Shown piece after piece: positions 1 to 52,570 of a stretch of DNA of 56,727 nt (the first letter of the stretch is position 1; each line of letters begins with the position of its first letter). Location of the stretch: assembly GCA_903904685.1 (NCBI GenBank), contig CAIVDS010000049.1:1-56727 (forward strand), given 5' to 3'. The notes beneath the pieces are model-generated. The model was not told where the DNA came from, made no database searches, and saw only the letters and a list, made by a program, of their open reading frames with translations. The DNA comes from an uncultured Verrucomicrobiota bacterium. Lineage in GTDB: Bacteria; Verrucomicrobiota; Verrucomicrobiia; Opitutales; Opitutaceae. The translations under genes and the position numbers were made by a program.

Positions 1-3
1 GCG

Positions 4-303
4 TGCGGTGACAAGAAAGTCTAGTGCGGTCGGATAAAAAGCGAGTGCGGTAGAATAAAAACCTAGTGCGGTGATAATAAAAGTTAGTGCGGTGATAATA
101 AAACCGATTGCGGTGATAAGAAAAACTAGCGCGGTAGTCGTAAAAGAGATTGCGGCAATAGGAAAAACTAGCGCGGCGATAAGAAAACCGATTGCGGCGA
201 TAATAAAAGTTAGCGCGGTAGGAGTAAAAACTAGCGCGGAGATAATAAAACCTATCTCGGTAATAGTAAAAAGTATCGCGGTAATCGTAAAACCGATTGC
301 GGT
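4..303. repeat. 21-bp tandem repeat array, at least 14 units
   Basis: Fourteen full 21-bp units (starting at 4, 25, 46 and so on to 277-297) and a partial fifteenth occupy the left edge. Each unit has a nearly fixed block YGCGGT, a variable stretch of about six bases, a fixed AAAA run, a variable triplet and a closing AG or AT. The window starts inside or just before the array, so its true length is unknown. The 21-bp period is about two helical turns, so the A-runs lie on one face and the DNA may be curved. One frame (71-316) is open with a seven-residue period, but the first units carry stops in it and its third positions are AT-rich, unlike the genes here, so I treat the array as noncoding. 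No CRISPR or insertion-sequence signature is visible. Confidence 0.9.
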
Positions 304-320
304 CGGGTCAATTTGACCCG
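304..320. promoter_or_regulatory. Perfect 17-bp palindrome ending the repeat array
   Basis: Arms CGGGTCAA (304-311) and TTGACCCG (313-320) flank a single T. It begins exactly where the last partial 21-bp unit stops, so it marks the array boundary. It could be an operator-like site, a recombination boundary or chance. No T-run follows, so it is not a terminator. The function is unknown. Confidence 0.5.
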
Positions 321-504
321 AAAACACGCCAAAATCGGTCGAAAACACGGGAAAACCACCCCCAACCCTCTCAAAAGCACCGAAATCCACACGGTGAGTG
401 ATCGCCGCAAGATCCAGTTCGCGGTGGATGGGATCTGGCCCGAGCTGATCCCGGCCAACGCGGGCATCCGCGTCGAGTTCAAGCTCTCGGCCTCCACGCG
501 TTGA
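313..504 (+). CDS. Hypothetical protein, probably the 3' remnant of a longer gene
   Basis: A 63-codon open frame starts from an ATG inside the palindrome (313). The same frame is open without a start back to 235, inside the repeat array. The last 35 codons (about 397-504) show the strong G/C third-position bias of real genes in this window, and the stop is followed within about 60 bases by a strong intrinsic terminator on the same strand. Both facts suggest a genuine gene end. The first part is low-complexity and basic, read through sequence next to the array, and does not look like a normal N-terminus. I infer that the original 5' part was lost or displaced. The short C-terminal peptide matches no family I recognise, and a small intact gene remains possible. 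Confidence 0.35.
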   Translation: MTRKHAKIGRKHGKTTPNPLKSTEIHTVSDRRKIQFAVDGIWPELIPANAGIRVEFKLSASTR

Positions 505-515
505 ACTGAACGCAG

Positions 516-566
516 GTCGGGGCGAACCCCGACGCGAGGCCCGGCCTAATTGGTCGGGCCTTTTTC
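516..566 (+). terminator. Tandem hairpins with intrinsic terminator
   Basis: A first hairpin (GTCGGGG, loop CGAA, CCCCGAC; 516-533) is followed by a 10-bp stem with one G-T wobble (537-546 with 552-561, loop TAATT). Five Ts at 561-565 follow the second stem. This is a textbook Rho-independent terminator for + strand transcription ending after the stop at 504. Confidence 0.85.
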
Positions 567-701
567 GCGCGCGGCGTTCAGACTGCGTGATCGCAAAAAA
601 ATGAGAGGGGAGCGCGGGGAAGCAGGCTGGAAACGATGTCAGGCGGGCTGGGAAACTCAGGATTAACGAAACTCGCGGCAATCCCTGCGGCTAAAACGAG
701 G

Positions 702-1550
702 TCAACGCGCTCCAGAGTGTTTCAACATACCACGGCAGCGAGGGTAGGTGGAGCAACCCCAGAACGGAGTGAAATCACCGGTGCGCCAGACCATGGGCGA
801 TTCGCATTTGGGGCAGTGGTGCTCACGGGAACTTAGCAATGAGGTGAGTTCGCTGTCGGCCAAGCGGTCACTGGCTCGGGAGGACAAGGTCTGTCCGGTC
901 ACGATATCTATGCCGTGATGGGTGGCAAAGGCCTCGGCAGGGCGGGTAGCCCCTTTCAGCACATAAAGGGAGCCTCGTTTCACCTGATAGTGTGTCATGC
1001 TGCCCAGCAACTCTCGAATGACCTTTTCCTGCACCACCCATGTTTTCCAGTGTTTGCACTGCACGAGCATGGGCTCGCCGTTCTTGGTGGCGATAAGGTC
1101 TACGCCGCCATCGGGCTGGGCGCCGCCCTTGCGTTCCACGGAAAATCCTTCGCTGCGAAGAAGAGCCGCGCAGAACTTCTCAAATTGATACCAGTCGATT
1201 TCACCGAGAGCCTCCTCGATACGTCTCTGATTCCAGACTGGTTCAACCCGAGGAGGAACCGCCGCCGCACGATAGCTTGGGGTTACGTTCCGAATAGGAG
1301 AGGAGACGGCCTCATTGAAATGGGCGTCCTCCATGGCCTTGGCCCTGTAAAGACGATAGACAAGGTAACCGAGTCCGCCAACCAAGACAGCGCCAAGAAC
1401 CCAAAAGATGAGGACGAAGATGGAGCTAAGAACCTTCGCGAATCCTCCGATGCCGCCAATGACGAGCGCGAGCATGACCACGCCAAACAACACCATCTTG
1501 CCTACGAATTCAAAGAGATCGGCTTCCTTATTGCGGCGGCGACGGCTCAT
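702..1550 (-). CDS. Membrane-anchored Mrr-like restriction endonuclease with topoisomerase-type zinc ribbon
   Basis: The 282-residue protein has three parts. Two hydrophobic segments (about residues 17-35 and 39-66) follow a basic N-terminus. An Mrr-type PD-(D/E)xK nuclease domain spans about 118-215, with catalytic-type residues in PDGGVDLI (Asp151) and VQCKHW (Gln164, Lys166). A C-terminal four-cysteine ribbon (C246, C249, C266, C272) resembles topoisomerase I zinc fingers. Mrr-family proteins cleave DNA, often modified DNA. Membrane tethering plus a DNA-binding ribbon suggests action on DNA at the envelope, which is inference. It is the last gene of a - strand operon, 15 bases after the GIY-YIG gene, so a DNA-defence or DNA-uptake-control role is plausible. 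Family assignment is firm; biological role is not. Confidence 0.85.
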   Translation of the reverse strand: MSRRRRNKEADLFEFVGKMVLFGVVMLALVIGGIGGFAKVLSSIFVLIFWVLGAVLVGGLGYLVYRLYRAKAMEDAHFNEAVSSPIRNVTPSYRAAAVPPRVEPVWNQRRIEEALGEIDWYQFEKFCAALLRSEGFSVERKGGAQPDGGVDLIATKNGEPMLVQCKHWKTWVVQEKVIRELLGSMTHYQVKRGSLYVLKGATRPAEAFATHHGIDIVTGQTLSSRASDRLADSELTSLLSSREHHCPKCESPMVWRTGDFTPFWGCSTYPRCRGMLKHSGAR

Positions 1551-1565
1551 ATAGATTTGATCCCT

Positions 1566-2378
1566 TCAGTTGGCGTTGAGGCCGTGGATGCGGGTCAGGA
1601 ATTTTTGTTTCCAACGATTCTCCATCCGAATGAGTTCCTCGGCGGTAGCCGCTGACGACGCGACTTCCAGGATACTGACTTGGTAATCGGATGCCGGCAG
1701 GTCCATCATGCGTTTATTGCCTCCGTGCCCGCTGGCGACGTAGTCCTCCCAGCGCCCCCATAAGCCGCGTTCACCGCCAGCCGAGCCGACGTAGTTCATT
1801 CCGGTTTTTGGGCAGGAAAGGAGGTAGACACCGCGAACCGCCGAAAGCGCCTGACGCCACGACAAGGGCAGTGAAACAAGAGTGCTCAGGCGTTCGCAGA
1901 AATCCAGAAAACCGGGGAAGGGGGGATCGCCCGCACTGCGACGGAGCTCCAGAATCTGCTTGTCCTGTAGGTGGGCACGTTGCACCCAGCTGCGTTTGCC
2001 CGGACCCCATTCGATGATGAGCTTTGCGCGATACTCGGCCAGCGCGGCCATCAACTGCAGATCATAGAAATGGCTTCCGGTTTCGTCGCTGCCCGATGCT
2101 GGATCTACCGTCCCGGCGGGAGCAATCCCTGCACTGGCGACACGATAGAGGCCGACAAACAAAGTCTCATTGAGCGGTGTGGCTACAAAGGAGGCCGCGT
2201 AGTCAATATCGCGAAACCACGGGTTTCTCTGGATGCGCTGGTAGAGTTCGAAGCTGCCGTCATTGGCCCGCCAAAGTTGGTAAGGGCTCTTGTCGAAGCG
2301 ATGATCTTGATTCCGGACCAGTTTGACGCGGGCTGGATCGAGCGATGCCTCTGCGAGGAGTGTGTTAAAGGTTATCAT
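1566..2378 (-). CDS. GIY-YIG nuclease-domain protein
   Basis: The GIY-YIG domain is in the C-terminal third of 270 residues: GVYLL (183-187), YVGSA (196-200), an Arg (209) on the following helix and a likely metal-binding Glu at about 253. The first 180 residues form a domain I do not recognise. In related proteins such N-terminal regions often position the nuclease on its target. The gene lies 24 bases after the upstream unknown gene and 15 bases before the Mrr-like gene, so the three are almost certainly co-transcribed. Family knowledge supports DNA cleavage; the target is unknown. Stand-alone GIY-YIG proteins also occur in homing elements and repair, but no intron or intein is seen here. 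Confidence 0.8.
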   Translation of the reverse strand: MITFNTLLAEASLDPARVKLVRNQDHRFDKSPYQLWRANDGSFELYQRIQRNPWFRDIDYAASFVATPLNETLFVGLYRVASAGIAPAGTVDPASGSDETGSHFYDLQLMAALAEYRAKLIIEWGPGKRSWVQRAHLQDKQILELRRSAGDPPFPGFLDFCERLSTLVSLPLSWRQALSAVRGVYLLSCPKTGMNYVGSAGGERGLWGRWEDYVASGHGGNKRMMDLPASDYQVSILEVASSAATAEELIRMENRWKQKFLTRIHGLNAN

Positions 2379-2402
2379 TTTTCTTAGCTCAGTGCGCTCC
2401 GG

Positions 2403-3071
2403 CTATCGGGAACGGAAGCGAGGCACGATTTCGGCAACATCACGTAGCACGACGCGGTTCTTTCTATGGTTGTAGTAATCGCGAACCGAGGGGAATCGAT
2501 CAGCGTATTTCTCACGGAAGGCGTCACCTAGTTTCTTGTTCCCTTTCAAGATAGAGGCAATGCCGCGACCGCTTTCGAAGAACTGCCGAGGCAACTCGGT
2601 TCCTATGGTATAAAGCTCTTTCTTCTTCGGAGATTCATCCTCGGCTAGAAAGAAAAAGTCCTTAAAAATTTTATTTTGGCGGATTACCTCGGCGCCACCT
2701 TGCCAGTTAATGAAGGTGAACTCCGCTATCCGTCGGTTTGTGCAAAGGTCGAATCCGCGTCCGGTATTGCCCGCCGCGAGTGAAACCGACTGCACGCACT
2801 CTCCCTGTTCAAGAATGTGAGGCAGGGCTAGCAATATGCCCGCAGCATGAACGATCTCGTCTATCTGCCGTGAATGCCACTTCATCAAAAGCGCTGCTGA
2901 TAGCAGGGCATCGGTAATACCGTTTTGTTGAAGATTACTGCCAGCGTTATCTCCTGAATATGTGGAGCAGTTCTTTTCAATACGTGCGATCGTATCGCGA
3001 AACGAGGATGCGCGAAATTCTTCTAAAGTTGCAGCGGCAAAATTGAGATCGATTGGTGACTTCGATTCCAT
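2403..3071 (-). CDS. Unknown 222-residue protein, possible degenerate PD-(D/E)xK fold
   Basis: I cannot name this soluble protein with confidence. Near the middle, the segment around Asp108 and Glu117 (GFDL, then AEFTF and INWQGG) resembles the beta-hairpin core of PD-(D/E)xK nucleases, except that the expected lysine two residues after the Glu is Thr119. The C-terminal half is helical and charged. Coding sequence is clearly more AT-rich than in most neighbours, which suits acquired DNA. A 32-codon ORF ends 3 bases before its ATG, and that ORF's last codons supply the ribosome-binding site (AAGGAG), implying translational coupling. With the GIY-YIG and Mrr-like genes downstream it forms a putative three-component nuclease operon. 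Confidence 0.7.
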   Translation of the reverse strand: MESKSPIDLNFAAATLEEFRASSFRDTIARIEKNCSTYSGDNAGSNLQQNGITDALLSAALLMKWHSRQIDEIVHAAGILLALPHILEQGECVQSVSLAAGNTGRGFDLCTNRRIAEFTFINWQGGAEVIRQNKIFKDFFFLAEDESPKKKELYTIGTELPRQFFESGRGIASILKGNKKLGDAFREKYADRFPSVRDYYNHRKNRVVLRDVAEIVPRFRSR

Positions 3072-3074
3072 CGT

Positions 3075-3173
3075 TTACTCCTTCAGATCGGTTTCGATCT
3101 CGCCGAATTGTTCGAGAGCGGCGCGGCGGGCGTCGATCTGTTGGCGGGCGAGGGCTTCGGGGGCGGACGACAT
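3075..3173 (-). CDS. Small leader ORF (32 residues), possible type I restriction gene scar
   Basis: ATG at 3173 opens 32 codons with the G/C-rich third positions of a real gene, ending TAA at 3075, three bases before the ATG of the next gene. Its penultimate codons AAG GAG form that gene's Shine-Dalgarno, so translation is probably coupled. The start, with EALARQQID, recalls the N-terminus of type I restriction HsdR subunits, and the rest is a charged helix. The match is short, so this is suggestive only. It may be a functional leader peptide, a small antitoxin-like protein, or the joined remains of a deleted restriction-modification locus. Its composition contrasts with the AT-richer gene that follows. 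Confidence 0.45.
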   Translation of the reverse strand: MSSAPEALARQQIDARRAALEQFGEIETDLKE

Positions 3174-3284
3174 GCGGGAACCCCGAAGGTTGTGAAGACC
3201 GCCAAGAGCGGGCGCAACGCCGGTTTCGGGGAAAGTGCGGCGAAACCAAAGGCGGCGGGCGAGGAGGGAGAATCGTGACGATGC

Positions 3285-4073
3285 TTACCCGCCTTGACGT
3301 TCGCTGGACCGATACCAGCGGTAAAAGACCGTCATGAAGGCGAGGAAGGTGACGCCCATGCCGCCGAGCTTCATGATGACCGCCCCGAGGAGTTGATCAT
3401 TGGCCGGGGAGAAGTCGGGGAACAGGCGCGGCGCGTATTCGTAGGTGGCGTAGAGGATGTCGTCGGAAAACGCGATGTAGGCGAAGACGGGCGTCATGCC
3501 GATGACGACGGCGACGAGGTAAAGCATCTGGGTGGCCGGGCGGGCGGGCGGAAACTCGGCGGACGGGCTGAGCAGCGGCCACCAGTAAAAGAGAGCCGCC
3601 CCGAAAAACATGAGGTGTTCGGCGATGTGAACCCAGCGGTCTTGCAACGCCCAGTCGTAGAGCGCGGGCACATGCCAGAGGGAGTAGGTGAGGATGTAAA
3701 CGAGGCCGCAGACGACGGGTTTGGTGAGAAAGCCGAACAGGTGGCGGAGAGAGGGGCGCGAGGTCAGCGGACTCACCAGCCAGCCGGGCAGGCCGAGGAG
3801 GAAGAGCACGGCGGCGGGATAGATGAGCAGGGCGTGTTGCACCATGTGGGCGCTCAGGAGGAAGCGTTCGCCGGCCTGATCGAGCGGCGAGCCGACCGCC
3901 AAATAGAAGAGCACGAGGGCACCGTAGAACTTGAGCGCATGGCTGCGCGGATAGGCGGCGCCGGGGGCGATCCTGTCGCGCAGCGGCCCCGTGAGCACGG
4001 CGTAGAGCCAGCCCAAGAGGATGAGCCCGCCGATGAGGTGGGGCTCGTTATGCCAATGGCGCCAGTCGATCAT
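3285..4073 (-). CDS. ctaG: Cytochrome c oxidase assembly protein, caa3_CtaG family
   Basis: A 262-residue polytopic membrane protein with about seven hydrophobic segments. It has the histidine-rich signatures of the CtaG family found with caa3 oxidases: HMVQHALL, LWHVPALYDWALQ and IAEHLMFF. CtaG is needed for maturation of caa3 oxidase, probably copper delivery to subunit I. This is the Bacillus-type CtaG, unrelated in sequence to proteobacterial Cox11. It follows the oxidase subunits on the same strand, but a strong terminator sits just upstream of its start (4090-4118), so its expression may depend on readthrough or its own promoter. The ATG at 4073 gives a normal family length. Confidence 0.9.
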   Translation of the reverse strand: MIDWRHWHNEPHLIGGLILLGWLYAVLTGPLRDRIAPGAAYPRSHALKFYGALVLFYLAVGSPLDQAGERFLLSAHMVQHALLIYPAAVLFLLGLPGWLVSPLTSRPSLRHLFGFLTKPVVCGLVYILTYSLWHVPALYDWALQDRWVHIAEHLMFFGAALFYWWPLLSPSAEFPPARPATQMLYLVAVVIGMTPVFAYIAFSDDILYATYEYAPRLFPDFSPANDQLLGAVIMKLGGMGVTFLAFMTVFYRWYRSSERQGG

Positions 4074-4089
4074 GGGACGTCATAGACGC

Positions 4090-4118
4090 AAAAAAAGGCG
4101 GCCATGGGAAGCCGCCTT
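4090..4118 (-). terminator. Intrinsic terminator between ctaF and ctaG
   Basis: On the - strand an 8-bp perfect stem (AAGGCGGC with GCCGCCTT, 8-base loop) is followed by seven Ts (4090-4096). It lies after the subunit IV gene and 17 bases before the ctaG start, so it should end most oxidase transcripts and reduce ctaG expression. Confidence 0.8.
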
Positions 4119-4145
4119 GATGCAGGAAGAGGATTTAATCCGCCG

Positions 4146-4526
4146 TCAGCCGGTCCGGAGCGCGGGCGCGACGGTCACGGAGGCCGCCTGTTGCGAGGTG
4201 AGCGGAACGCTGTCGGAGTTCTTGAAGAGCGCCAGCAGCGAGAGCGCGATGCCGAGGGCCAGAATCAGGCCGATGAGAAACAGGATCGTGCAAAAAACCT
4301 TGTCCCACTTCAGGTGCATGAAGAGGTAGATGCCGAGGGTGAACTTCACGCTTAGCATGACGAGAAGCGCGCCGACGATCACGCCCTTGGGGAGCGGCAG
4401 ATAGACCGTGAGAACCTCAAGACCGGTGATGACCGCGAGAACCATCGCAATCTTCACGAGCAGGTGGAACTTGTTTTCCGGGGGCGGGCCTTGATCGGTC
4501 GCGGGGGCGGGAGAGGGAGCGCTCAT
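4146..4526 (-). CDS. ctaF: Cytochrome c oxidase subunit IV
   Basis: A 126-residue protein with a Pro-rich N-terminus and three hydrophobic segments (about residues 22-43, 49-70 and 77-100), including the motif GIYLFMHLKWDK typical of bacterial oxidase subunit IV (COX4_pro/CyoD-like). This subunit supports assembly and stability of the heme-copper oxidase and has no redox centre. The start at 4526 follows the subunit III stop by 8 bases, which fits co-translation. A longer open frame reaches upstream to 5522 but overlaps subunit III and is not real. The C-terminal tail beyond the last membrane segment is unremarkable. Confidence 0.85.
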   Translation of the reverse strand: MSAPSPAPATDQGPPPENKFHLLVKIAMVLAVITGLEVLTVYLPLPKGVIVGALLVMLSVKFTLGIYLFMHLKWDKVFCTILFLIGLILALGIALSLLALFKNSDSVPLTSQQAASVTVAPALRTG

Positions 4527-4534
4527 GGAGGGAA

Positions 4535-5377
4535 TCAAAGGAATTCGAACAGGTAGACGACGGTGAAGATCACGATCCAGACGATGTCGATGAAGTGCCA
4601 GTAAAGGCCGAGCGACTCGACATCGATGGCGTTGCCCTCGCCGAAATCGACGGCGGCTCGCGGGCGGGCAAACCACGACAGGATCGCGAGGCCGGCGGCG
4701 AAGACACCGGCCGCGACGGCGTTGTGCCGGACGGCATGGGCGAGGGAGCGAATGGCGAGCCCGTGATCCTCGACGGAGTGGGCCGCGCTCACGAGAAGCG
4801 TAACCCCCGCCACCACGACACCGGCGAAGACGATCAGGTGGGCGAGCGAGCGCAGCACCCAAGGGCTTTCGTCGGCGGGCTTGAAGGTGCGGATATACAT
4901 GAGCGTCAGCCAGAGCACGCCGATGCCGACGTGGCAGCCGTGCGTGCCGGTGAGCGTGTAGAACGTCGTGCCGAACATGCTGCCGGAGGGCGTGAGGCCT
5001 TCGGCGAGGAAGTTGCCGTATTCGAAGACCTGGCAGGAGAGGAAGGTGAGGCCGAAGACGATCGTGCCGAGGAGCAGGCGGCGCACGCTCTTGAGGTTGC
5101 CCTTCTGGCAGGCGTTGACGGCGAGCGCGACGAACAGCGATGAAACGAGCAGGACGAAGGTCGCGAAGAGCGTGAGGTCGATCGAAAAAAGCTTCTTCGG
5201 GTCCGGCGAGCCGGGCATCGGGTGCAGGCGGTAGATCAGGTGCGTCGAGATGAGCGCGCCGAAGAACATGCAGTCCGAGGCGAGAAACGCCCACATGAAG
5301 AGCTTCTTGTTGGGAATGCCCGTCGACGTGGCGTGGTCGTGATGGTGGTCGATGGCGCCGGTGGCGTGATTGCTCAT
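4535..5377 (-). CDS. ctaE: Cytochrome c oxidase subunit III
   Basis: 280 residues, with a histidine-rich N-terminal tail and about seven membrane segments. Family motifs include FLASDCMFFGALI near the first helix and the TGTHGCHVGIG region, close to the family's usual TGxHGxHV. Subunit III does not carry metals; it stabilises the oxidase and its oxygen/proton channel. The ATG at 5377 lies 24 bases after the subunit I stop and the stop is 8 bases before subunit IV, so the four structural genes form one transcript in the order II-I-III-IV. Length and order match bacterial caa3 and aa3 operons. Confidence 0.92.
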   Translation of the reverse strand: MSNHATGAIDHHHDHATSTGIPNKKLFMWAFLASDCMFFGALISTHLIYRLHPMPGSPDPKKLFSIDLTLFATFVLLVSSLFVALAVNACQKGNLKSVRRLLLGTIVFGLTFLSCQVFEYGNFLAEGLTPSGSMFGTTFYTLTGTHGCHVGIGVLWLTLMYIRTFKPADESPWVLRSLAHLIVFAGVVVAGVTLLVSAAHSVEDHGLAIRSLAHAVRHNAVAAGVFAAGLAILSWFARPRAAVDFGEGNAIDVESLGLYWHFIDIVWIVIFTVVYLFEFL

Positions 5378-5401
5378 GCTGGAAAGAGTAAGGTGAGAAA
5401 C

Positions 5402-7342
5402 TTAGTGCCTGCCGTCGCCGTGGTCGTCGTGTTTTTCGAGATGGACGTGGTAGCCGCCGGGGCCTTCGGACGCCCAGAAGTAGATGCCGAGAACCATGAT
5501 CCCGCCGCCGATGATCGCCCAAAGGAAGAGATGGTTGACGAACAAAATGGCCCCGATGAGCAGACCGGAGGCCGCGAGGAGCGGGAACCAGGACTGGCTG
5601 GGCATGTGGATGCCGCCGTGGGCCGTCTCGGACTTGGCGTGCTCGGCGGTTTCCTTGGCGATCTCGTCCTTGTGGGTCTTCTCATACCAGAAGGCGTCGC
5701 GGGCGTGGATGGTCGGGATGACGTCGTAATTGTGTTCGGGAGGAGGCGTGGGCAACGACCACTCCAGCGTGCGGGCATCCCAAGGATCGCGCCCGACCTT
5801 CTCGCCCTTGAAGTAGGTGCGGATCATCACGGTGAAGTAAACGGCGATGCCAACGCCAAGGATGAAGGCGCCGACGGTCGAGACGAGGTTGGCGTCGCTC
5901 CAACCCATGTTGCCGTCGTAAACGGCGGTGCGGCGGGGCATGCCGTTCAGGCCGAGGAAATGCATCGGGAAGAAGGTGACGTTGAACCCGACGAAGATGA
6001 GCCAGAAGGAGAGCTTGCCCCAAAACTCGGAGACCTTGCGGCCAAAGATGAGAGGGAACCAGTAGTGAATGCCGGCGAGGAGGGCGAAGACCGAACCGCC
6101 GATGAGCACGTAGTGGAAGTGGGCGACGACGAAGTAGCTGTTATGCTGCTGGGAGTCGGCCGGGGCGGCGGCATGCATGATGCCGGAGAAGCCGCCGAAC
6201 ATGAACATCCATACGAAGCCAAGGGCGAACATCATGGGCGTGCTCATGCGGAGCTGGCCGCCCCAGAGGGTGCCGATCCAGTTGAAGATCTTGACGCCGG
6301 TGGGCACCGCGATCGCCATCGTCATGAGCGAAAAGGCGGCGGTCGCGACCGAGCCCATTCCCGTGGTGAACATATGGTGGGACCACACGCCGAAGCCGAG
6401 GAAGCCGATGCATGCGCCGGAGAAAACGATGATGGGATAACCGAAGAGAGGCTTGCGCGAAAAGGTGGGCAGGATTTCGGAAATGATGCCCATCGCCGGA
6501 AGGATAAGGATATAAACCTCGGGGTGGCCGAAGATCCAGAAGAGGTGCGACCAGAGGATGGGCAGACCGCCGTTGGCGGCCTCGAAGAAGTTGGTGTTGA
6601 AAGAGCGGTCCATCATCAACTCGACGAGGGCGATGGTGATCGCAGGGAAGGAGAGGATGATGAGGAAGGCGGTGATGAGGGTCATCCACGTGAAAACCGG
6701 GAGGCGCATCATCGTCATGCCGGGTGCGCGCAGGTTGATGATGGTGACGATGAAGTTGAGCGAGCCGACCACGGAGGAGACGCCGAGAATCTGCAGGCCC
6801 ATGACCCAGAGGTCGGTGGACATGTCGCCGGCGAATTGATCGGAGTAGGCCTTCGAGGTGAGCGGGGCGTAGCCGAACCAACCGGCGTCGGGAGAGCCTG
6901 ATTTCACAAACCAGCCGATGTTGATGACGATGGCCCCGACGATGAAGACCCAGAAGGCGAACCCGTTGAGCCGGGGAAAGGCGACGTCGCGCGCGCCGAT
7001 TTGCAGCGGCATGATGTAATTGAAGAACGCCGCCGAGAGAGGCATGACCGCGAGGAAGACCATCGTGGTCGCGTGCATCGTGAACATCTCGTTGTAGGTC
7101 TGATGCGAGATGAACGTGTTGTTGGGAACGGCCAGCTGGATGCGGATAAGAAGCGCCTCAAAACCGCCGACAAGGAAGAAGAACAGGGCGGAGATGCCGT
7201 AGAGCATGCCGATGCGTTTGTGGTCAACGGTGGTGAGCCAGCTCACGATGCCGGTCTTGGCGGTGGGGCGGGTGAACAGCCACGAACGTTTCCCTGCGTG
7301 AGTTTCGGCGCCGGGATGGCCGGCATTGGCGATTGCTTCCAT
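5402..7342 (-). CDS. ctaD: Cytochrome c oxidase subunit I, caa3 type
   Basis: The catalytic heme-copper subunit, 646 residues. Visible ligands are His90 (low-spin heme, MHATTM), His273 with Glu275 and Tyr277 in HPEVY, the CuB pair His322-His323, and the heme ligands His408 and His410 in AHFHYV. Lys351 (VPTGVK) of the K channel and Asp119 of the D-channel entry are present. HPEVY with a Glu marks an A1-type oxidase. The protein is longer than the minimal 12-helix core: two extra hydrophobic stretches lie near the C-terminus before a His/Asp-rich tail, as in Bacillus-type caa3 subunit I. It reduces oxygen to water while pumping protons and follows ctaC by 20 bases. Confidence 0.97.
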   Translation of the reverse strand: MEAIANAGHPGAETHAGKRSWLFTRPTAKTGIVSWLTTVDHKRIGMLYGISALFFFLVGGFEALLIRIQLAVPNNTFISHQTYNEMFTMHATTMVFLAVMPLSAAFFNYIMPLQIGARDVAFPRLNGFAFWVFIVGAIVINIGWFVKSGSPDAGWFGYAPLTSKAYSDQFAGDMSTDLWVMGLQILGVSSVVGSLNFIVTIINLRAPGMTMMRLPVFTWMTLITAFLIILSFPAITIALVELMMDRSFNTNFFEAANGGLPILWSHLFWIFGHPEVYILILPAMGIISEILPTFSRKPLFGYPIIVFSGACIGFLGFGVWSHHMFTTGMGSVATAAFSLMTMAIAVPTGVKIFNWIGTLWGGQLRMSTPMMFALGFVWMFMFGGFSGIMHAAAPADSQQHNSYFVVAHFHYVLIGGSVFALLAGIHYWFPLIFGRKVSEFWGKLSFWLIFVGFNVTFFPMHFLGLNGMPRRTAVYDGNMGWSDANLVSTVGAFILGVGIAVYFTVMIRTYFKGEKVGRDPWDARTLEWSLPTPPPEHNYDVIPTIHARDAFWYEKTHKDEIAKETAEHAKSETAHGGIHMPSQSWFPLLAASGLLIGAILFVNHLFLWAIIGGGIMVLGIYFWASEGPGGYHVHLEKHDDHGDGRH

Positions 7343-7362
7343 GATGAGAGACGGTGTGGAGA

Positions 7363-8646
7363 TTACTTCAGGCTTTGCAGATAAGCGACAATCGCGGGGG
7401 CTTCTTCATCGGAGACGACGATGTGCGGGACGAGTTTGTCGTCCTGCATCATCATGTAGCCGGGCATGCCATTGATCCCGAGATACATTTTGTTGCCGGG
7501 CTTGACCTCATTCGGACGGGTTATCCAGCGGTGGAGATTGACGGAATTATTCTCAAGCAGACCGGCGGCGATGGTGGTGCGGCTGCCGATGTGAGTGAGG
7601 TCCGGGGCAAACGGCGCGCCGCCCATGTTGTTGCCTCGAACGACATGGCAGGTGACGCAGGACTTGGCGGTGAAAAGGTCGTGGCCCTGGGCGATGAGCA
7701 CGGGATTTTCGTTGGCCGCGGGCTTTTGCTGTTTCAACCAAGCTGCGAGCGGGTCGGTATCAAAGGCGGAGCTGTAGCCAGGTGCGTTGCGCCCGGGGTT
7801 TTTGAAGGCGTAGCCTGCGGGCTGGGTTTTGGCGAGGGCTCCGTCGGAAGGCGGAGTCAAGGCACGGGCGGGAGCTTTCTGAGCGATGATCCATTCGGCA
7901 TAATCTTTTTGAGCGAGCGCGATGAGGCGGAAGCGCATGACCGCGTGGCTTTCGCCGCAATACTCGGCGCATTGGCCCCAAAAATATCCCGGGGCGTCGG
8001 CCTTCAGCCAGAGGTGGTTCCCTCGGTTGGGGATCATGTCGACCTTGCCGGCAAGCTTGGGCACCCAGAAGGAGTGCATGACGTCGTTGGCGCGCAGGTT
8101 GATTCGGATGGCGCGGCCGACGGGGATCACAAGTTCGTTGGCGGTGGTGAGCGGACCGACGCCGTCGATCTGCTCGGAAGGGTATTCAAATTTGAACCAC
8201 CATTGGTAGCCGGTGGCGTTTACCTCCAGTGCGTTTGTTTTCTCGGCGGCGGGCACATCGTAGGCATACCAGATGGCGCGAAGGGTCGGGATGGCGATGA
8301 ACACCAGTGCGAGCACCGATGCGGCGATCAGGCCGAGTTCGATGAAGGGATTACCGTGGCCTTGCGGAGGAGTCGGGGTCTGCTCGTCGCTGTCGTTGCG
8401 GGCCTTGTATTTGAGGGTCGCGTAGGTGAGGACACTCGCAACCAAGACGAAGATGATGCCGGTGACCCAGACGGTGACGTAAAAGACGTGGCGTTGGGAC
8501 TCGGCCACGGGACCGGCGACATCGATGGTCGATTGCGGGCCGGTCAGCCAGTTCAACCAACCGCCAAAAAAGAGAGGCATGCTGGCTACAGCCGCGCAAG
8601 GGAGGATGCGTCGCTTGAATAAGCGGGAAGGGAAAAAATGACTCAT
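7363..8646 (-). CDS. ctaC: Cytochrome c oxidase subunit II fused to cytochrome c
   Basis: A 427-residue two-domain protein. After a signal-like segment and two membrane helices, the cupredoxin domain carries a complete CuA site: His191, Cys226, Glu228, Cys230, His234 and Met237 (CAEYCGESHAVM). The C-terminal domain has a c-type heme motif CVTCH (330-334) with a probable distal Met in the GMPGYMMM region. The fusion defines a caa3 oxidase, which can take electrons straight from a quinol:cytochrome c pathway without a separate soluble cytochrome c. It is first in the operon. The 247 bases between its start and mpl must hold divergent promoters, but I see no convincing consensus boxes. Confidence 0.96.
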   Translation of the reverse strand: MSHFFPSRLFKRRILPCAAVASMPLFFGGWLNWLTGPQSTIDVAGPVAESQRHVFYVTVWVTGIIFVLVASVLTYATLKYKARNDSDEQTPTPPQGHGNPFIELGLIAASVLALVFIAIPTLRAIWYAYDVPAAEKTNALEVNATGYQWWFKFEYPSEQIDGVGPLTTANELVIPVGRAIRINLRANDVMHSFWVPKLAGKVDMIPNRGNHLWLKADAPGYFWGQCAEYCGESHAVMRFRLIALAQKDYAEWIIAQKAPARALTPPSDGALAKTQPAGYAFKNPGRNAPGYSSAFDTDPLAAWLKQQKPAANENPVLIAQGHDLFTAKSCVTCHVVRGNNMGGAPFAPDLTHIGSRTTIAAGLLENNSVNLHRWITRPNEVKPGNKMYLGINGMPGYMMMQDDKLVPHIVVSDEEAPAIVAYLQSLK

Positions 8647-8893
8647 GTGGCCGGATGCGAAATGACCCGTCGATTACACGAGTCTTGGGGGGAGAGAGTC
8701 CGCAACAAAAGGGCCATTTCAAGCTATAAAACTACAAGCAGTGTTTATAGAAGCTAAAGCCTCCGTGAATAGATGAGGGGGCCGACGTTAAGGTAACTGC
8801 GGTTCAAATTTTATCGAGAGTGAGATTTGGTTGGGGGACGGATCACTGGTGAGATGCACCTAATCCCAAATAGCGCTGGTTTTTACAGGCAGG

Positions 8894-10339
8894 ATGGATT
8901 GGCTGGTTTTGATGAGAGTTTATTTCATGGGAATCTGCGGGACGGCGATGGGCAACGCGGCGTTGCTCGCGCGCGCGGCCGGGCATGAGGTGCTCGGTGC
9001 CGATACCGGGGTATATCCTCCGATGAGCACCGTGCTTGCCGACGCGGGGATAACATTGCACGAGGGCTACGATCCCGTGCGGCTCGCCAAGCTCGCTCCC
9101 GATCTCGTCGTCATTGGCAACGCCATGTCGCGCGGGAATCCCGAGGTTGAGTGGCTTCTGGACGAGCGGACGCTGCCGTTCACCTCGCTGCCGGCTCTCC
9201 TGCACGACACGATTCTCAAGACACGCCAAAACATCGTCGTCGCGGGCACGCACGGGAAAACCACGACCACGTCGCTCACGGCTTTTCTGCTGCGCGAGAA
9301 CGGGCTCGATCCTGGCTTCCTCATCGGCGGCGTGCCGATTGATCCGCCGATGGGCAACCACCTCGGCACGGTGGGTGATCCGTTCGTGATCGAGGGCGAC
9401 GAATACGACAGCGCATTTTTCGACAAGCGGTCGAAGTTTATCCACTACGCGCCGCATATCGCCGTGTTGAATAATCTGGAGTTCGACCACGCGGATATCT
9501 TCCGCGATCTGGCCGACGTGCAGCGGACGTTCAGCCACCTTACGCGTATCGTGCCGCGCAACGGCTTCGTCGTCATGAACGGCGACGACGAGAACCTCAA
9601 GGCCCTCGGGCCGCTTCCGTGGACGCGGGTGGTGCGCGTCGGCATCGGCGAGGTCAACGACGTGAGGATCGTGGATTTTGTCGAGACGCCAGACGGCGTG
9701 AGTTTCAAGCTGCTTTGGCAGGGGCGGACATGGCATGAGGTGAAGTGGTCCACTCCCGGCCTCTACAATGCCCGCAACGCGGCCATGGCGGCGGCGGCGG
9801 CGGGATTGGCGCTCGATGCGAAAAATCCGACCGTGCTCAAGCTCGATGCGCTGGCGCGTTTCCGCGGAGTGAAGCGCAGGCAGGAGGTGTTGGCGGCGAC
9901 GCCTGCGCTGACGGTGATCGAGGACTTCGGCCATCATCCGACGGCGCTGGCGGAGACGCTCAAGTCGTTTCGAAACCGTTTCCCGGAGGCGGTGCTTACG
10001 GCGGTGTTTGAGCCGCGCAGCAACACGGCGCGCACCAATACCCTGCAGGCGGGCTTCATGGCGGCGCTGGCGCTGGCCGATGAGGTTTATCTCGGAGCGG
10101 TGAACCGTGCCGACAAGCTCAAGACGGAGGAGAGGTTCGATACCGAGGCGGTCATCAAGCACCTGTCTTCTCAAGGTGTGGCGGGGCGCACGGGGGCGAC
10201 GAATGCGGATGTGCTGGCCAAACTTGTGGCGGCGACGCTGCCGGTGAAGACAGGAACCAAACAGCGCGTAGTGGTTTTTTTCTCCAACGGGAGCTTCGAC
10301 GGCATCATCGCCAAGTATGCCGCGGCGCTGGGTGGGTGA
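8894..10339 (+). CDS. mpl: UDP-N-acetylmuramate:L-alanyl-gamma-D-glutamyl-meso-DAP ligase
   Basis: A Mur-ligase family protein. The N-terminal Rossmann domain begins FMGICGTAMG, the P-loop is GTHGKTTTT, and later motifs are EGDEYDSAFFD and the EDFGHHPTA region; the RSNT motif near the C-terminal domain fits Mpl rather than MurC. Mpl joins recycled murein tripeptide to UDP-MurNAc in the cytosol, bypassing de novo synthesis. Two starts are possible: ATG at 8894 (481 residues) or ATG at 8912, which matches usual family N-termini better. Neither has a clear ribosome-binding site. The gene is divergent from ctaC and stands alone, convergent with rimO. Confidence 0.9.
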   Translation: MDWLVLMRVYFMGICGTAMGNAALLARAAGHEVLGADTGVYPPMSTVLADAGITLHEGYDPVRLAKLAPDLVVIGNAMSRGNPEVEWLLDERTLPFTSLPALLHDTILKTRQNIVVAGTHGKTTTTSLTAFLLRENGLDPGFLIGGVPIDPPMGNHLGTVGDPFVIEGDEYDSAFFDKRSKFIHYAPHIAVLNNLEFDHADIFRDLADVQRTFSHLTRIVPRNGFVVMNGDDENLKALGPLPWTRVVRVGIGEVNDVRIVDFVETPDGVSFKLLWQGRTWHEVKWSTPGLYNARNAAMAAAAAGLALDAKNPTVLKLDALARFRGVKRRQEVLAATPALTVIEDFGHHPTALAETLKSFRNRFPEAVLTAVFEPRSNTARTNTLQAGFMAALALADEVYLGAVNRADKLKTEERFDTEAVIKHLSSQGVAGRTGATNADVLAKLVAATLPVKTGTKQRVVVFFSNGSFDGIIAKYAAALGG

Positions 10340-38224: not shown

Positions 38225-39337
38225 TCAGTCGAAGAAGAGCCGGCCTTTCGAGGTGCGCCGGTCGGGGTGGTCGCTTTCCCAGTAAACATCCTTTTGGATG
38301 TCATCGGTGGTGGGGAAGGGGCTTGCCTCGGCAAAATCGGCGGCGAGATCGGCCTCGGCCTTTGCCTCGGTGTCGATCTGTTCGACGAAAACATCAGTGA
38401 GAACGCCTTCGGCAATGAGCTTTTGCTGGAAAACCTGGATGGGATCCTTGGTGCGGCGGTATTCCTCGATCTCGTCGCGGGTGCGGTAGGTCTTGTCGGG
38501 GTCGGCGACGGAGTGGCCGCGGTAACGGTAGGTGTCGATCTCCACGACGGAGGGCTTGGACTCGTCGCGGGCGAGTTTAAGGAACTTGTCCATCGTGGCG
38601 CGGACCTCGTAGATGTCGTGACCGAAGCATGTGCCCCAGTTCATGCCGTAGGCCTCGGCGCGCTGGGCGAGACCGGGGCCGGCGGAGGAACGATCTTGGC
38701 TGGTCCCCATGGAATAACCGTTATTCTCGACGACGAAGATCACAGGGAGATCCCAAAGAGCTGCGAGATTGTAGGCTTCGTGCACGGCACCTTGGTTGAC
38801 CGCACCATCACCCATGAAAGCCATCGAGGCACCTTTGAGCCCCCTGTATTTGAGTGCGTAGGCGAGTCCGGTTCCGAGCGGGATTTGTCCGCCGACAATA
38901 CCGTGACCGCCCCAGTAGTTAAGAGAGGGTGCGAAGTAGTGCATGGAACCCCCTTTGCCTTTGGAGCAACCAGTGACTTTGCCGTAAAGTTCGGCCATGA
39001 GGGCTTTCGTATCCATGCCGACGGCGATGGCGTGACCATGGTCACGGTAGGCGGTGATGACATGGTCGTTCTTGCCCATGAGAGAGCAGCAACCGACGGC
39101 CACGGCTTCTTGGCCGATGTAGAGATGGAGGAAGCCACCGATCTTTTTACCTTGATAGGCGCGTAGGCTGCGTTCCTCAAACCGACGGATGCGCAACATC
39201 TTGCGATAGAGATCGATTCTCTCGCCTTTGGTTAGATCTGCGTTGATCTGGGCTTGTGCGAATGAGCTGCCAATGGGGGCGGCATCCTTCTTTTCAATGG
39301 TGGAGGTGGCTTTTTTGCTCACAGGAAATGCATTCAA
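38225..39337 (-). CDS. pdhA: Pyruvate dehydrogenase E1 component alpha subunit
   Basis: 370 residues. The thiamine-diphosphate motif is GDGAVNQGAVHEAYNLAALW followed by VVENN (GDG to NN spacing as in the family), and the phosphorylation-loop-like region YRYRGHSVADPDKTYR is conserved. The N-terminal 35 residues are a charged, probably flexible extension. It is first in its operon, so the promoter should lie in the roughly 100 AT-rich bases upstream of 39337. The alpha/beta type of E1 is found in Gram-positives, alpha-proteobacteria and mitochondria, unlike the single-chain E. coli enzyme. Confidence 0.94.
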   Translation of the reverse strand: MNAFPVSKKATSTIEKKDAAPIGSSFAQAQINADLTKGERIDLYRKMLRIRRFEERSLRAYQGKKIGGFLHLYIGQEAVAVGCCSLMGKNDHVITAYRDHGHAIAVGMDTKALMAELYGKVTGCSKGKGGSMHYFAPSLNYWGGHGIVGGQIPLGTGLAYALKYRGLKGASMAFMGDGAVNQGAVHEAYNLAALWDLPVIFVVENNGYSMGTSQDRSSAGPGLAQRAEAYGMNWGTCFGHDIYEVRATMDKFLKLARDESKPSVVEIDTYRYRGHSVADPDKTYRTRDEIEEYRRTKDPIQVFQQKLIAEGVLTDVFVEQIDTEAKAEADLAADFAEASPFPTTDDIQKDVYWESDHPDRRTSKGRLFFD

Positions 39338-39439
39338 ACAGTTTAAAATTCGGAGTGTTCGTCAGAAGCTTAATAAATCAAGTGTTTACTAGGCTTGAGC
39401 AGTTTTCGAAATGGTGGGTGGACGGCTTTTGAACGTGTG

Positions 39440-39964
39440 TCACTGATGCTCCGACGATTGATGAGGCGTGATCTGTTCCACTTCCACGTGCGCTGCTGGC
39501 CCTTGAGTGCAGTCCAAACGTAACGCGACGAAGCTGTCGTGATAGCGATCGTAAATCGGCCACAAGGCCGTGCGGTCAGTCTCCGGCAAAGGCAGGATGC
39601 TGACGTTATTTCTGGAGAAAAATCCAAAGCGCCCCTCTTTCATGACTGGGGGTAGCACATTGATCGGACGCCGACATTTGAAGAGAAATAGCAGCCAATG
39701 GGCGGCGCCTTCGTAGGCTTTTTCCGCCACCATGGAGAAGAGATGCAGATCGGATGTCGTGATAACGTGGCCGGTTTCCTCGTGGGTTTCACGAATGGCG
39801 CACTCGAAGGGGGATTCACCGGTCGAGGTTTCAAGCTTCCCGCCGATGGGGCTCCATGAACCGAGATTGGGCGGCTTGGCGCGCAACAGCAACAGATGTT
39901 CGCCGCTGTCATTGTTCATGAAGACAAGCACGGCGATTTTGTAGTCGAGAAGAGGTTCCATCAA
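39440..39964 (-). CDS. Nudix hydrolase
   Basis: 174 residues with a full Nudix box, GX5EX7REUXEEXGU, reading GGKLETSTGE to ETHEETGH (about residues 41-66). These enzymes hydrolyse nucleoside diphosphates linked to another group, and the substrate cannot be told from the sequence. It has two adjacent start codons (39964 and 39961). It is transcribed away from the pilus-like block, leaving about 85 bases for divergent promoters. It may be co-oriented with pdhA but is separated by about 100 bases. Confidence 0.85.
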   Translation of the reverse strand: MMEPLLDYKIAVLVFMNNDSGEHLLLLRAKPPNLGSWSPIGGKLETSTGESPFECAIRETHEETGHVITTSDLHLFSMVAEKAYEGAAHWLLFLFKCRRPINVLPPVMKEGRFGFFSRNNVSILPLPETDRTALWPIYDRYHDSFVALRLDCTQGPAAHVEVEQITPHQSSEHQ

Positions 39965-40048
39965 AAAGAGAGAATAGAAAATACGTGAACGAAGACTTTT
40001 AGCGTGACGGGCGCGTAGAGATGCTCAATGTTTTGTTATTCCCCTAGC

Positions 40049-40681
40049 ATGAAATCCCTCACAAGTCGTGTTCTCTTGTATGTGGTGGCCCTCTCGGCCG
40101 TCGCGCCTGCTTTTTCCCAGACCCCTCCGCCCCCGGTTATCGAGGTGTCCAGCGTTAAGTTCAACTCCGTCCACGTGGGCGGTTCCTCCGATGTTTGGTA
40201 TGAGGTTGAGATTGGAATCCAAGGTCGCCCTGGCTCCGCTGCGAACAACAAGCAGTTCATCAACCGCGTCAAGGTCACGCTCAACCTAGGTGTGTTCAGC
40301 GTGAAGGCTCCTGTCGGAGTCAAAATTCCAGACACCTACTACCGAGCCTCAGCCGAGGCGGTTGCCATTGAGGCAACGGGTAGCAAGATGGCTTTTCGTT
40401 TCTATTTGCCTCCCGAGATAGTCAAGCGCGACCAACTCACCGGCGACCAGAAGTTCTATTCTGTCGAACTCAGTGCTGATGGGAAAACTTTGCCGCCCAC
40501 CAAGACAAGCGTGTCGTTCGCCACACTGGGCACCTCGCAGGCGCTGGACAGCTTTCGCGCCAAGATATCATCCGATGCCTCGGTCAACGATGGTATTCTC
40601 GTGCCGCAGTATCTGACTCTTTTCGCCTTCGATACGTCGCGACCCGGCCCCTCTTTTATTCGCAGCGAAGGTGTCCGTTAA
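40049..40681 (+). CDS. Secreted protein, Amuc_1102-like, first gene of secretin block
   Basis: 210 residues from ATG 40049; an earlier ATG (40028) would add seven residues before the signal sequence. An N-terminal signal peptide (about 1-24) ends at a likely site after SAVAPAFS. The rest is predicted mostly beta, and I find no catalytic motif. Position, signal, size and beta-rich character match the protein at the start of the Akkermansia Amuc_1098-1102 locus (Amuc_1102), with which I identify it by gene order rather than by alignment. It probably stays in the periplasm or outer membrane, associated with the pilus-like machine that follows. Confidence 0.6.
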   Translation: MKSLTSRVLLYVVALSAVAPAFSQTPPPPVIEVSSVKFNSVHVGGSSDVWYEVEIGIQGRPGSAANNKQFINRVKVTLNLGVFSVKAPVGVKIPDTYYRASAEAVAIEATGSKMAFRFYLPPEIVKRDQLTGDQKFYSVELSADGKTLPPTKTSVSFATLGTSQALDSFRAKISSDASVNDGILVPQYLTLFAFDTSRPGPSFIRSEGVR

Positions 40682-40745
40682 GCATCCGTGATGAAATTCG
40701 GCTTGCCCGCATTGCACGGTTCTGAAATCGACTCATCTCTTCCCT

Positions 40746-42455: not shown

Positions 42456-42469
42456 CCCCTTGATCTTCT

Positions 42470-43543
42470 ATGGCCAGTTTTAAGTCCTATCCAGTTTTTG
42501 GCACCCTGCTTATCGTTATAGGCGTAGTCGTCGCCGGCGAAGCTTGGCTTTCCTATAACCGATTTGAGGCAGCCAAAAAAAGCGCCGTCGCTCTGAATCA
42601 GAAGCGCAACGAACTTACTTCCCTTCAAGCGGTGCAACCCTTTCCGAGCGAGGAAAACAAGGCTGCGGTAGAAGCGGATCTTCGTCGCACGCAGGTTGCC
42701 CTCGCCGCCATGCGCGAGGGACTCAAAGGACGCGGACCGGCAGCCGAGGAGCTGTTGAAAGCTCGCACGGCCTATATTCGCGCAGAAGGCATGACGCCGG
42801 AAGAACGGACCAAATTATTGCATGAAGCCAATGTGCCGGCCGAGCCTACGGACATGTTTTTTGATCTGGCGTCATTTACCGAAAAAACGCGCGACAAGGT
42901 CCAGCAGGCAAAGATCACGATTAAGACCGATGAGCGGTTTAGTTTTGCCACTTATGCCAATGCCGGTCCCGAGCGTGATTTGATCCCGCAGGTTTTTCGC
43001 CAGCGCCAGATAGTGGAATACCTTGTCGATGCCTTGATTAATGCGCATCCCAGCCAGTTGCTTTCATTGCAGCGGGAACGTCCTCTGACCAAGGCGCAAC
43101 GTGCGTTGCTCGCCGCCGGACAGCAATTGCCACCGGCACCGCGTGGCGCCGCTCCGGGAGCGGAGTCCGATCTGTTTGAAATCGATCCGCGTATTTCCGC
43201 CCGTGTGCCAGGGTTTGTGGTCGTCACGAGTTTTCGGCTCGATTTTATCGGTGATACGGAGGCCCTTCGCACTTTCCTTAACAAATTGGCGACCTTTGAA
43301 CTCCCTCTGGTGGTTCGAAGCGTCGAAGTAGAGCCAGCCCCGGCAACGACACCGGGCGGATCGGTGCCAGTCAATCCCACGACCCTTGGTGCGATTTTTG
43401 GCACTGAGGACACCACTACGGCTGCGCCGGTCGCCAAGCCGAAGGCGCTTGTGGAAAAGGTCCTCTCTAAATTTACGGTTACAGTGGAGTTTATTGATCT
43501 CGTAGCCACCACAACCGCTGCTGGAGCCACCTCGACTTCCTGA
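42470..43543 (+). CDS. PilO-like membrane protein, Amuc_1100-like
   Basis: 357 residues with an N-terminal membrane helix (about 9-27), a coiled coil (about 30-85) and a periplasmic region ending with a KVLSKFTVTVEFIDL strand. This architecture and its place directly after the PilM-PilN gene match PilO-type proteins and the Akkermansia outer-surface protein Amuc_1100. The family is diverse in sequence, so the call rests on architecture and order. Regions near residues 280-325 are Pro/Ala/Thr-rich linkers. It likely pairs with PilN through its coiled coil to build the inner-membrane platform. Confidence 0.65.
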   Translation: MASFKSYPVFGTLLIVIGVVVAGEAWLSYNRFEAAKKSAVALNQKRNELTSLQAVQPFPSEENKAAVEADLRRTQVALAAMREGLKGRGPAAEELLKARTAYIRAEGMTPEERTKLLHEANVPAEPTDMFFDLASFTEKTRDKVQQAKITIKTDERFSFATYANAGPERDLIPQVFRQRQIVEYLVDALINAHPSQLLSLQRERPLTKAQRALLAAGQQLPPAPRGAAPGAESDLFEIDPRISARVPGFVVVTSFRLDFIGDTEALRTFLNKLATFELPLVVRSVEVEPAPATTPGGSVPVNPTTLGAIFGTEDTTTAAPVAKPKALVEKVLSKFTVTVEFIDLVATTTAAGATSTS

Positions 43544-43544
43544 T

Positions 43545-44462: not shown

Positions 44463-44530
44463 AAAATTCCTTTCCTTCCTTTCAACTATAACATCCCCTC
44501 CTAGTCTCAATCAGAAGAGCATCCCCCTAA

Positions 44531-47401: not shown

Positions 47402-47461
47402 TGTTAAGATAGCCTGTGCTTCCGGGTGCTACCAGGCCGTCTGAAAGCATTTTCATCACTC

Positions 47462-47500
47462 AAAACCCTCGGGGCTCTCGCCCCGAGGGTTTTATTTTTT
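47462..47500 (+). terminator. Strong intrinsic terminator after the secretin gene
   Basis: A 9-bp perfect stem (CCCTCGGGG with CCCCGAGGG, loop of six), extended by A-T pairs, is followed by an almost unbroken T-run (47490-47500). It closes the secretin block on the + strand and separates it from the exonuclease gene. Confidence 0.9.
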
Positions 47501-47561
47501 ATGACGAATTGATAGTCGCGTAAGAGTGGTTTTTGTGGATACACAACGAGGATAATATACT

Positions 47562-52411: not shown

Positions 52412-52570
52412 AAAAACAGGTATCGTGTGTGAAGACGGATTTGCCGATGGGTGACGACAATGTTTTTTACAAATAGGGTCATCTTGTCAAAGAAAACGTC
52501 CTGCGGGTTACCGAGGCTTGAGGTAGAGAATAAACTTGAAGGCTCTGCGTGCCGCGTCTCCCTTGGCCAC

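Follow-up and report, generated by a model that had tools for sequence, protein, structure and literature searches.

Layout of the locus

We analysed a compact locus at positions 702 to 3173 of a 56,727-nucleotide stretch of DNA, hereafter the window, from an uncultured Verrucomicrobiota bacterium of the family Opitutaceae (GenBank assembly GCA_903904685.1, contig CAIVDS010000049.1). The window is the entire contig, C49 in our numbering, and its left edge is therefore an assembly break. Four open reading frames (ORFs) run from 3173 to 702 on the minus strand, and the ORF listing agrees with the intergenic gaps of 3, 24 and 15 bases given in an earlier note on this DNA. The three longer ORFs encode nuclease-type proteins of 222, 270 and 282 amino acids (aa), the second of which is UzuA. 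Uzume is a single-gene defence system and UzuA is its protein. The fourth ORF, of 32 aa, is what is left of a type I restriction-modification (R-M) operon, as seen by comparison with two other genomes, a congener (G010) and a member of another genus of the same family (G021). The features are the following, with the evidence for each in brackets.

702-1550, minus strand: Mrr-type endonuclease, 282 aa (Pfam matches and hydrophobicity)
1566-2378, minus strand: UzuA (Uzume), 270 aa (PADLOC, alignment and model)
2403-3071, minus strand: PD-(D/E)xK-like protein of an unnamed family, 222 aa (44-member alignment and model)
3075-3173, minus strand: 32-aa ORF, hsdR/hsdM deletion scar (matches to G010 and G021)
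3078-3083, minus strand: AAGGAG, ribosome-binding-type site of the 222-aa gene (read from the sequence; lies within the last codons of the hsdM remnant)
3174-3258, minus strand: R-M leader element with inverted repeat (four copies in the window's genome)
3285-4073, minus strand: ctaG-like core gene, by reading (present in all 13 genomes of the genus)

The reading frames of all three long genes are intact. Their GC contents are 0.495, 0.582 and 0.569, as compared to 0.646 for ctaG, so part of the locus is AT-richer, as had been noted earlier. The GC content at third codon positions (GC3) is 0.525, 0.661 and 0.650, as compared to 0.755-0.870 in three core genes. Neither the UzuA gene nor the 222-aa gene was found in the 12 congeners searched, which are 77-99% complete, and Mrr-domain matches were present in 2 of the 12. 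The genes downstream of ctaG were variable in the 10 congeners that were inspected.

The 32-aa ORF and its leader

The first half of the 32-aa ORF and its second half have different origins. The leader and the first 15 codons of the ORF match G010 at 81%, and the frame continues there as an hsdR N-terminus of 82 aa (HSDR_N, E 8.4e-5, under the cut-off). The second half matches the same genome about 5.9 kb further on, and between both halves lie a HATPase-domain gene and the Hachiman genes HamA1 (PADLOC, E 1.2e-98) and HamB1 (E 0). In G021 the type I operon consists of hsdR with one internal stop, hsdS, two further genes and hsdM, with the gene identities given by the Pfam models HsdM_N / N6_Mtase and Methylase_S. 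Here the first half of the ORF matches the start of hsdR (79%, E 0.003) and the second half the end of hsdM (77.8% over 45 nt, E 1.8e-5), at points 9.6 kb apart. When the halves were shuffled 100 times, the local score of the N-terminal half against G010 was 63 as compared to a shuffle maximum of 24, and the C-terminal half scored 41 against a maximum of 26 in G010 and 40 against 30 in G021.

By these alignments the ORF is shown to be a scar, in which the first approximately 15 codons of hsdR are joined in frame to the last approximately 17 codons of hsdM. The earlier note had taken it for a leader ORF coupled to the genes behind it, and this reading has to be given up for that of a deletion scar. 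Intact hsdR, hsdM and hsdS were not found at the locus, where the 32-codon scar alone remains. The last hsdM codons, AAG GAG, form a ribosome site that lies 6 bases upstream of the 222-aa start codon. The end of hsdR was also considered as the source of the C-terminal half and was ruled out: in G021 the end of hsdR is different, and it is hsdM that this half matches.

In G010 (locus L149, 9406-16474) Hachiman and the HATPase-domain gene are situated inside type I operon remains and are followed by a helicase-Mrr fusion. In G021 (locus L166, reverse strand, 5363-9319) an AAA-domain gene and, by reading, a DUF262-like gene are found between hsdS and hsdM.

The 85 bases upstream of the scar contain GGTTTCG-N12-CGAAACC (3222-3247). 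A search with the leader pattern gave four places in the window's genome and none in the 12 congeners, and the reversed control gave none; the G010 copy has a one-base gap, was missed by the pattern and was found by BLAST. The other copies in the window's genome precede an HsdR-like gene (C88:11399), an MmeI-type gene (C43:13522) and, close to the end of a contig, a short ORF (C47:67707); two of these three copies thus stand before R-M genes. The element was not found on plasmids, and a consensus scan detected no promoter-like site in it. The element looks like an R-M promoter region. With its 7-bp inverted repeat it is also a candidate operator or promoter for a common restriction-gene regulator. 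RptR was ruled out as this regulator; its site, TAGCTA according to PMC12255303, is not what is found in the element.

UzuA

The GIY-YIG protein of the locus is UzuA, in full length. It matches the PADLOC model PDLC03973 with E 2.9e-82 and 274 bits, residues 1-270 being aligned to positions 2-278 of the 278 in the profile, while the Pfam GIY-YIG match stays below the threshold (E 4.8e-4, 20.8 bits, cut-off 22.6). Residues Y185, Y196, R209 and E253 are the same in all 17 aligned sequences, one of them from the window. An alignment of UzuA was also made without L186 (internal stop), near-duplicates and partial rows. In the place of the GIY-YIG motif the window protein reads GVYLL...YVG. No membrane-type hydrophobic segment is seen in the protein, and it has no match to DUF4041 at E up to 1. 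Nor does UzuA match any sequence in the PDB at E up to 1; the search found no PDB relatives of note for the 222-aa family or the Mrr protein either, and gave one match, Syn-F4-Link, at E 0.025.

UzuA is widely spread. It was found in 387 plasmid records (199 of them under Klebsiella), in 23 IMG/VR contigs, in 3 phage records and in 11 of the 288 genomes of a phylum sample, the window's genome among them. On viral contigs a query with a single protein gave nothing, and the 23 loci came from an alignment of seven members. In the five plasmid regions that were read, UzuA stands alone among unrelated neighbours.

A structure model was built from 14 sequences, with a predicted local distance difference test score (pLDDT) of 88 and a predicted template-modelling score (pTM) of 0.61. 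It consists of an N-terminal alpha-beta domain (residues 1-150) followed by a GIY-YIG nuclease (approximately 180-270). The nuclease half matches I-TevI (Z 11.5, 1.6 Å, 85 residues aligned), which together with the PADLOC match confirms the GIY-YIG assignment made from the sequence. Among the 50 fold matches listed, 40 fall on the N-terminal half, with Z 4.9-7.2. The top solved match of this half is the sensor of CMoRE/PD-T4-3 (9u75, Z 7.2, 3.7 Å, 110 residues aligned), and a second CMoRE sensor structure, 9u7u, follows with Z 6.5. YTH and ASCH domains match with Z about 5, and the rest of the 40 rows are small proteins of EVE or ASCH type, among them 2p5d (Z 6.2), 1wmm (Z 5.8), 5y7d and 2gbs. 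The model thus gives a hint that the N-terminal half is a PUA/EVE/YTH-like base reader, nearest to that of CMoRE/PD-T4-3.

The Mrr protein

The 282-aa protein carries the Mrr_cat domain (PF04471, E 4.1e-25) with a GGVDL...QCK motif, QCK at position 164, and at its C-terminal end a topoisomerase-type C4 zinc ribbon (E 1.5e-9; Cys 246, 249, 266 and 272). Residues 10-67 are strongly hydrophobic and probably form two membrane helices. The description of this protein as a membrane-anchored Mrr-like enzyme with a zinc ribbon is well matched by these features. The PADLOC models ZorD and PDC-S02 match the protein only partially, and the Mrr-plus-zinc-ribbon relatives on plasmids, 199 records, include none that covers 80% of the query.

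The 222-aa protein and its family

The 222-aa protein had been described as carrying a PD-(D/E)xK-like motif. It has no match of note in Pfam, NCBIfam, PADLOC or PHROGs, and the same is true for its family of 44 aligned members. A scan of 84,980 species genomes, one genome per species, gave 66 loci of the family, of which L069 and L073 share one contig and L088 and L089 are fragments. IMG/VR added 3 loci, 10 plasmid records contain the family, and no phage record does. In the phylum sample the gene is present only in the window's genome (1/288). The 44-row alignment was made from the 66 and 3 loci by leaving out fragments, near-duplicates and shifted ORFs.

The model of the 222-aa protein has a pLDDT of 93 and shows the order helix, three strands, helix, strand. 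In the VIA fold search it matches mostly restriction-endonuclease-like nucleases, along with some unrelated rows, with a best Z of 5.5; the best rows are Cdn1, Card1, N.BspD6I, HindIII and Can2 (Z 4.0-5.5). Foldseek gave weak matches, the best being EcoO109I with E 0.11. D108 and E117 are kept in 44/44 members and the Lys of the ExK motif in 42/44, the window protein and L024 having Thr (Thr119). The active-site triad of PD-(D/E)xK enzymes is accordingly incomplete in the window protein, where Asp and Glu are present and Lys is replaced. The PD-(D/E)xK-like reading has support from the model and from the conservation of D108 and E117, but there is no sequence match of note to go with it, and the Lys is lost. 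Its loss hints that the protein cuts in an altered way or not at all, and that it perhaps binds DNA.

The nearest homologue is L024, from a 'Verrucomicrobia bacterium', with 55% identity, and together with the gene content of the window it points to Verrucomicrobiota as the source; two other verrucomicrobial copies, L072 and L075, keep the Lys. Of the relatives found, the nearest to UzuA (62%) and the nearest to the 222-aa protein (with Thr119) both come from the genome of L024 (G347), where they lie on different contigs.

For the surroundings of the family we used 73 loci, namely the 66 from species genomes, the 3 from IMG/VR and 4 plasmid regions. The neighbours include AbiH-, AbiV-, TIR- and Tni-type genes, and the family is therefore defence-associated. 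In alphaproteobacteria the gene is often directly behind another nuclease-like gene. A protein of about 514 aa precedes it in 13/73 loci with a 4-base overlap (L031-L033, L043, L044, L050, L052, L053, L055, L057, L059, L060 and L070) and has a weak C-terminal match to PDDEXK_5 (E 0.02). This unnamed protein and the 222-aa family gene form a candidate two-gene defence module. In 10/73 loci the preceding protein is one of 173 aa that matches PD-Lambda-3_A (E 5.8e-18), and none of the 44 members of the 222-aa family matches the PADLOC PD-Lambda-3 models at E up to 1. What the PD-systems are is described in PMC9519451 and PMC10952713, and these texts do not change our reading.

Do the three genes belong together?

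The three nuclease-type genes had been proposed to form a multi-component anti-phage or DNA-uptake barrier acting at the membrane. We made comparisons from both sides, with flanks of up to 8 kb where the contigs allow (about 1.5 kb for the UzuA loci L098-L107, and less for L103). On the UzuA side, 21 loci from bacteria and plasmids, which represent 16 distinct places, were used together with 23 from viral contigs. Neither UzuA (tblastn, and the UzuA profile at E up to 1) nor the Mrr protein (tblastn) was found near the 222-aa family in any of the 73 loci. A profile of the 222-aa family, with the window as positive control, found the gene at 0/16 bacterial or plasmid and 0/23 viral UzuA places. 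Within the searched sets, UzuA and the 222-aa family are thus never adjacent outside the window, and membrane-type segments are seen in the Mrr protein alone; the proposal of a joint system at the membrane is not supported, the earlier note itself having named missing co-occurrence elsewhere as what would refute it. The nearest to an exception are two UzuA loci. One, in G054, has an Mrr-domain gene beside UzuA in another layout, behind an HsdR-like gene (by reading). The other is a UzuA copy with two internal stops in G019, and a zinc-ribbon ORF stands alone downstream of it.

The part of the proposal that the genes are defence cargo fares better. UzuA is a named defence protein, it is absent from the 12 congeners together with the 222-aa gene, and the genes lie in the remains of an R-M operon. 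We therefore consider it fairly probable that the locus is defence cargo in type I R-M operon remains, with genes that most likely act separately, separate action being inferred because co-occurrence is lacking.

The following course of events would fit this explanation. The interior of the operon, from hsdR into hsdM, is gone (9.6 kb between the matching points in G021), and the leader, the start of hsdR and the end of hsdM remain. The operon may have been lost at the locus itself, or the cargo may have come in with a unit that already carried the scar. Behind the scar are three nuclease-type genes, the first of them 3 bases away. Their transcription probably starts at the old R-M promoter, and the 222-aa gene probably uses the end of hsdM as its ribosome site; the site itself is seen in the sequence. 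UzuA would function as a stand-alone Uzume, in which, going by the model, the N-terminal reader-like domain senses a base modification and the GIY-YIG domain cuts DNA. The Mrr protein, from its Mrr_cat domain and hydrophobic segments, would be a membrane-held, modification-dependent nuclease acting on entering DNA. The 222-aa protein would have a PD-(D/E)xK fold with altered or absent cutting, and would perhaps bind DNA.

Several observations weigh against parts of this explanation. No hsd operon follows ctaG in the 10 congeners inspected (0/10), and the remnant in G010 is about 0.9 Mb from the ctaG of that genome; a fixed exchange site beside ctaG is therefore unsupported. The match between the N-terminal half of the scar and G021 is borderline, with a score of 33 against a shuffle maximum of 32. 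As to the sensing domain of UzuA, the best reader row in Foldseek has E 0.20, below unrelated ribosome-assembly proteins (E 0.08-0.18), and the Z values of the PUA-like matches, 4.9-7.2, are middling and can reflect a mere common arrangement. The short spacing of the three co-oriented genes is also typical of a functional operon. Finally, in a check of genomes that took in 50 of the 66 loci, UzuA occurred somewhere in 4/50 genomes with the 222-aa family, among them the L024 genome, where it stands alone on another contig. UzuA is present in 2/2 genomes with the Thr form, the window included, as compared to 3/49 with the Lys form. This recount is weak evidence; it slightly raises the probability of a tie between these two genes and slightly lowers that of defence cargo with separately acting genes.

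Such a tie would mean that the 222-aa protein and UzuA work as a pair, in which the Lys-less protein is a DNA-binding partner of the GIY-YIG nuclease or restrains it, and the Mrr protein is a bystander. The distribution of the Thr form speaks for it. However, one of the two Thr-form genomes is the window itself, the genes are unlinked in the other, UzuA was stand-alone in the plasmid regions, and it has 387 plasmid records as compared to 10 for the 222-aa family. We find the pair unlikely. A system of three components, all of them required, in which DNA is sensed or bound by the 222-aa protein and cut by UzuA together with the Mrr protein at the membrane, seems to us quite unlikely. The genes are co-oriented with gaps of 24 and 15 bases, and in alphaproteobacteria the 222-aa family is often a second gene behind a nuclease-like gene, in the 13 and 10 of 73 loci described above. 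Against this stand the 0/73 loci with UzuA or the Mrr protein nearby, the UzuA loci without either partner, save for the Mrr-domain gene of G054 and the lone zinc ribbon of G019, and the unequal GC3 of the genes (0.525 as compared to 0.661 and 0.650).

It is very unlikely that the cassette is decaying cargo without a present function; the catalytic Lys of the 222-aa protein and the R-M operon have been lost here, but three frames are intact and so are the motifs of UzuA and the Mrr protein. The 32-aa ORF is open, has an ATG start and ends 3 bases from the 222-aa gene, but it can hardly encode a true leader peptide or a small antitoxin serving the genes behind it: its halves match separate genes of type I R-M operons, 9.6 kb (G021) or about 5.9 kb (G010) apart, and an R-M leader lies upstream.

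Relation to known systems and a possible mechanism for Uzume

With defence cargo in operon remains as the preferred explanation, the locus can be compared to known systems. UzuA matches the Uzume model in full length and has an intact active site; here it is found between two other nuclease-type genes. In one genome survey and one review the mechanism of Uzume is given as unknown, a further paper names the system in a list, and our literature search found no text linking Uzume, modified DNA and GIY-YIG.

CMoRE is described in PMC12923530 as a one-protein GIY-YIG type IV enzyme that targets DNA with 5-hydroxymethylcytosine (5hmC) and glucosylated 5hmC. It shares with UzuA the combination of a GIY-YIG domain and a modification-sensing domain, putative in the case of UzuA, in one protein, and the nuclease half of UzuA also matches the CMoRE/PD-T4-3 structure 9u7z (Z 7.0). 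In the same text the nuclease comes first in CMoRE, whereas it is last in UzuA, and the GIYxY-YIG motif given there is absent from UzuA. Because the domain order and the motif differ, UzuA is outside the CMoRE family. Fusions of EVE and GIY-YIG domains are on record (PMC7641849). The reader-like N-terminal fold together with a GIY-YIG nuclease implies that UzuA may act like CMoRE with the domains reversed, and Uzume may then be a modification-dependent restriction enzyme that cuts chemically modified phage DNA.

Taken one step further, and tentatively, Uzume could be a reader plus GIY-YIG modification-dependent enzyme in reversed CMoRE order. The locus would then be a switch, within the operon remains, from self-marking type I restriction to an attack on modified DNA, in which the old R-M promoter and ribosome site are in use and the catalytically altered PD-(D/E)xK protein possibly senses DNA in partnership with UzuA. 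This is a possibility suggested by the models, and we hold it to be doubtful as a whole.

SNIPE is also a GIY-YIG defence nuclease. According to PMC13190303 it combines a membrane helix with DUF4041 and GIY-YIG in a single protein, whereas the window has GIY-YIG and a predicted membrane anchor in separate proteins and UzuA is without a membrane segment. The 282-aa protein shares Mrr_cat with its QxK motif with Mrr and type IV endonucleases; it differs in having N-terminal hydrophobic segments and a C-terminal zinc ribbon, where EcoKMrr has an N-terminal winged helix (PMC12707154). The same source describes how hsd and other defence genes replace one another at type I loci and in the immigration control region of E. 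coli, and in this respect the locus is similar. It is different in that hsd is here cut to a 32-codon scar, that the content is UzuA, Mrr and an unnamed family, and that the congeners do not support a fixed site between core genes.

The analysis gives a testable proposal for the mechanism of the widespread Uzume, and it brings to notice an unannotated PD-(D/E)xK-like family that is often found behind other nuclease-type genes. It also offers a view, at the level of the sequence, of a restriction operon yielding to other defence genes with its leader and ribosome site left behind. Caution is needed when a 'leader ORF' next to defence genes is interpreted, as such an ORF can be what a deletion left behind.

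Surroundings of the locus

The locus had been placed at a junction between core genes and a repeat array. The core side is represented by ctaG, present in all 13 genomes of the genus, and the array turned out to be a minisatellite at 3-303, with a unit of about 21 bp in about 12 units that are about 70% alike. The minisatellite recurs on contigs C24, C56, C91, C43, C99 and C114 of the same genome with 72-92% identity, and at the end of C108 with 100% identity over 88 bases. Next to it, positions 395-612 on the plus strand are 84% identical to C24:21136-21354, where a gene that recurs in several partial copies in the genome has its 3' end, and a terminator-like hairpin is located at 543-560, after this stretch. 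In positions 1-4200 as a whole, the consensus scan saw 5 terminator-like sites with 4.6 expected. Further along the window, positions 39000-48000 and 52000-54000 have a lower GC content (0.52-0.58) and may be further acquired DNA.

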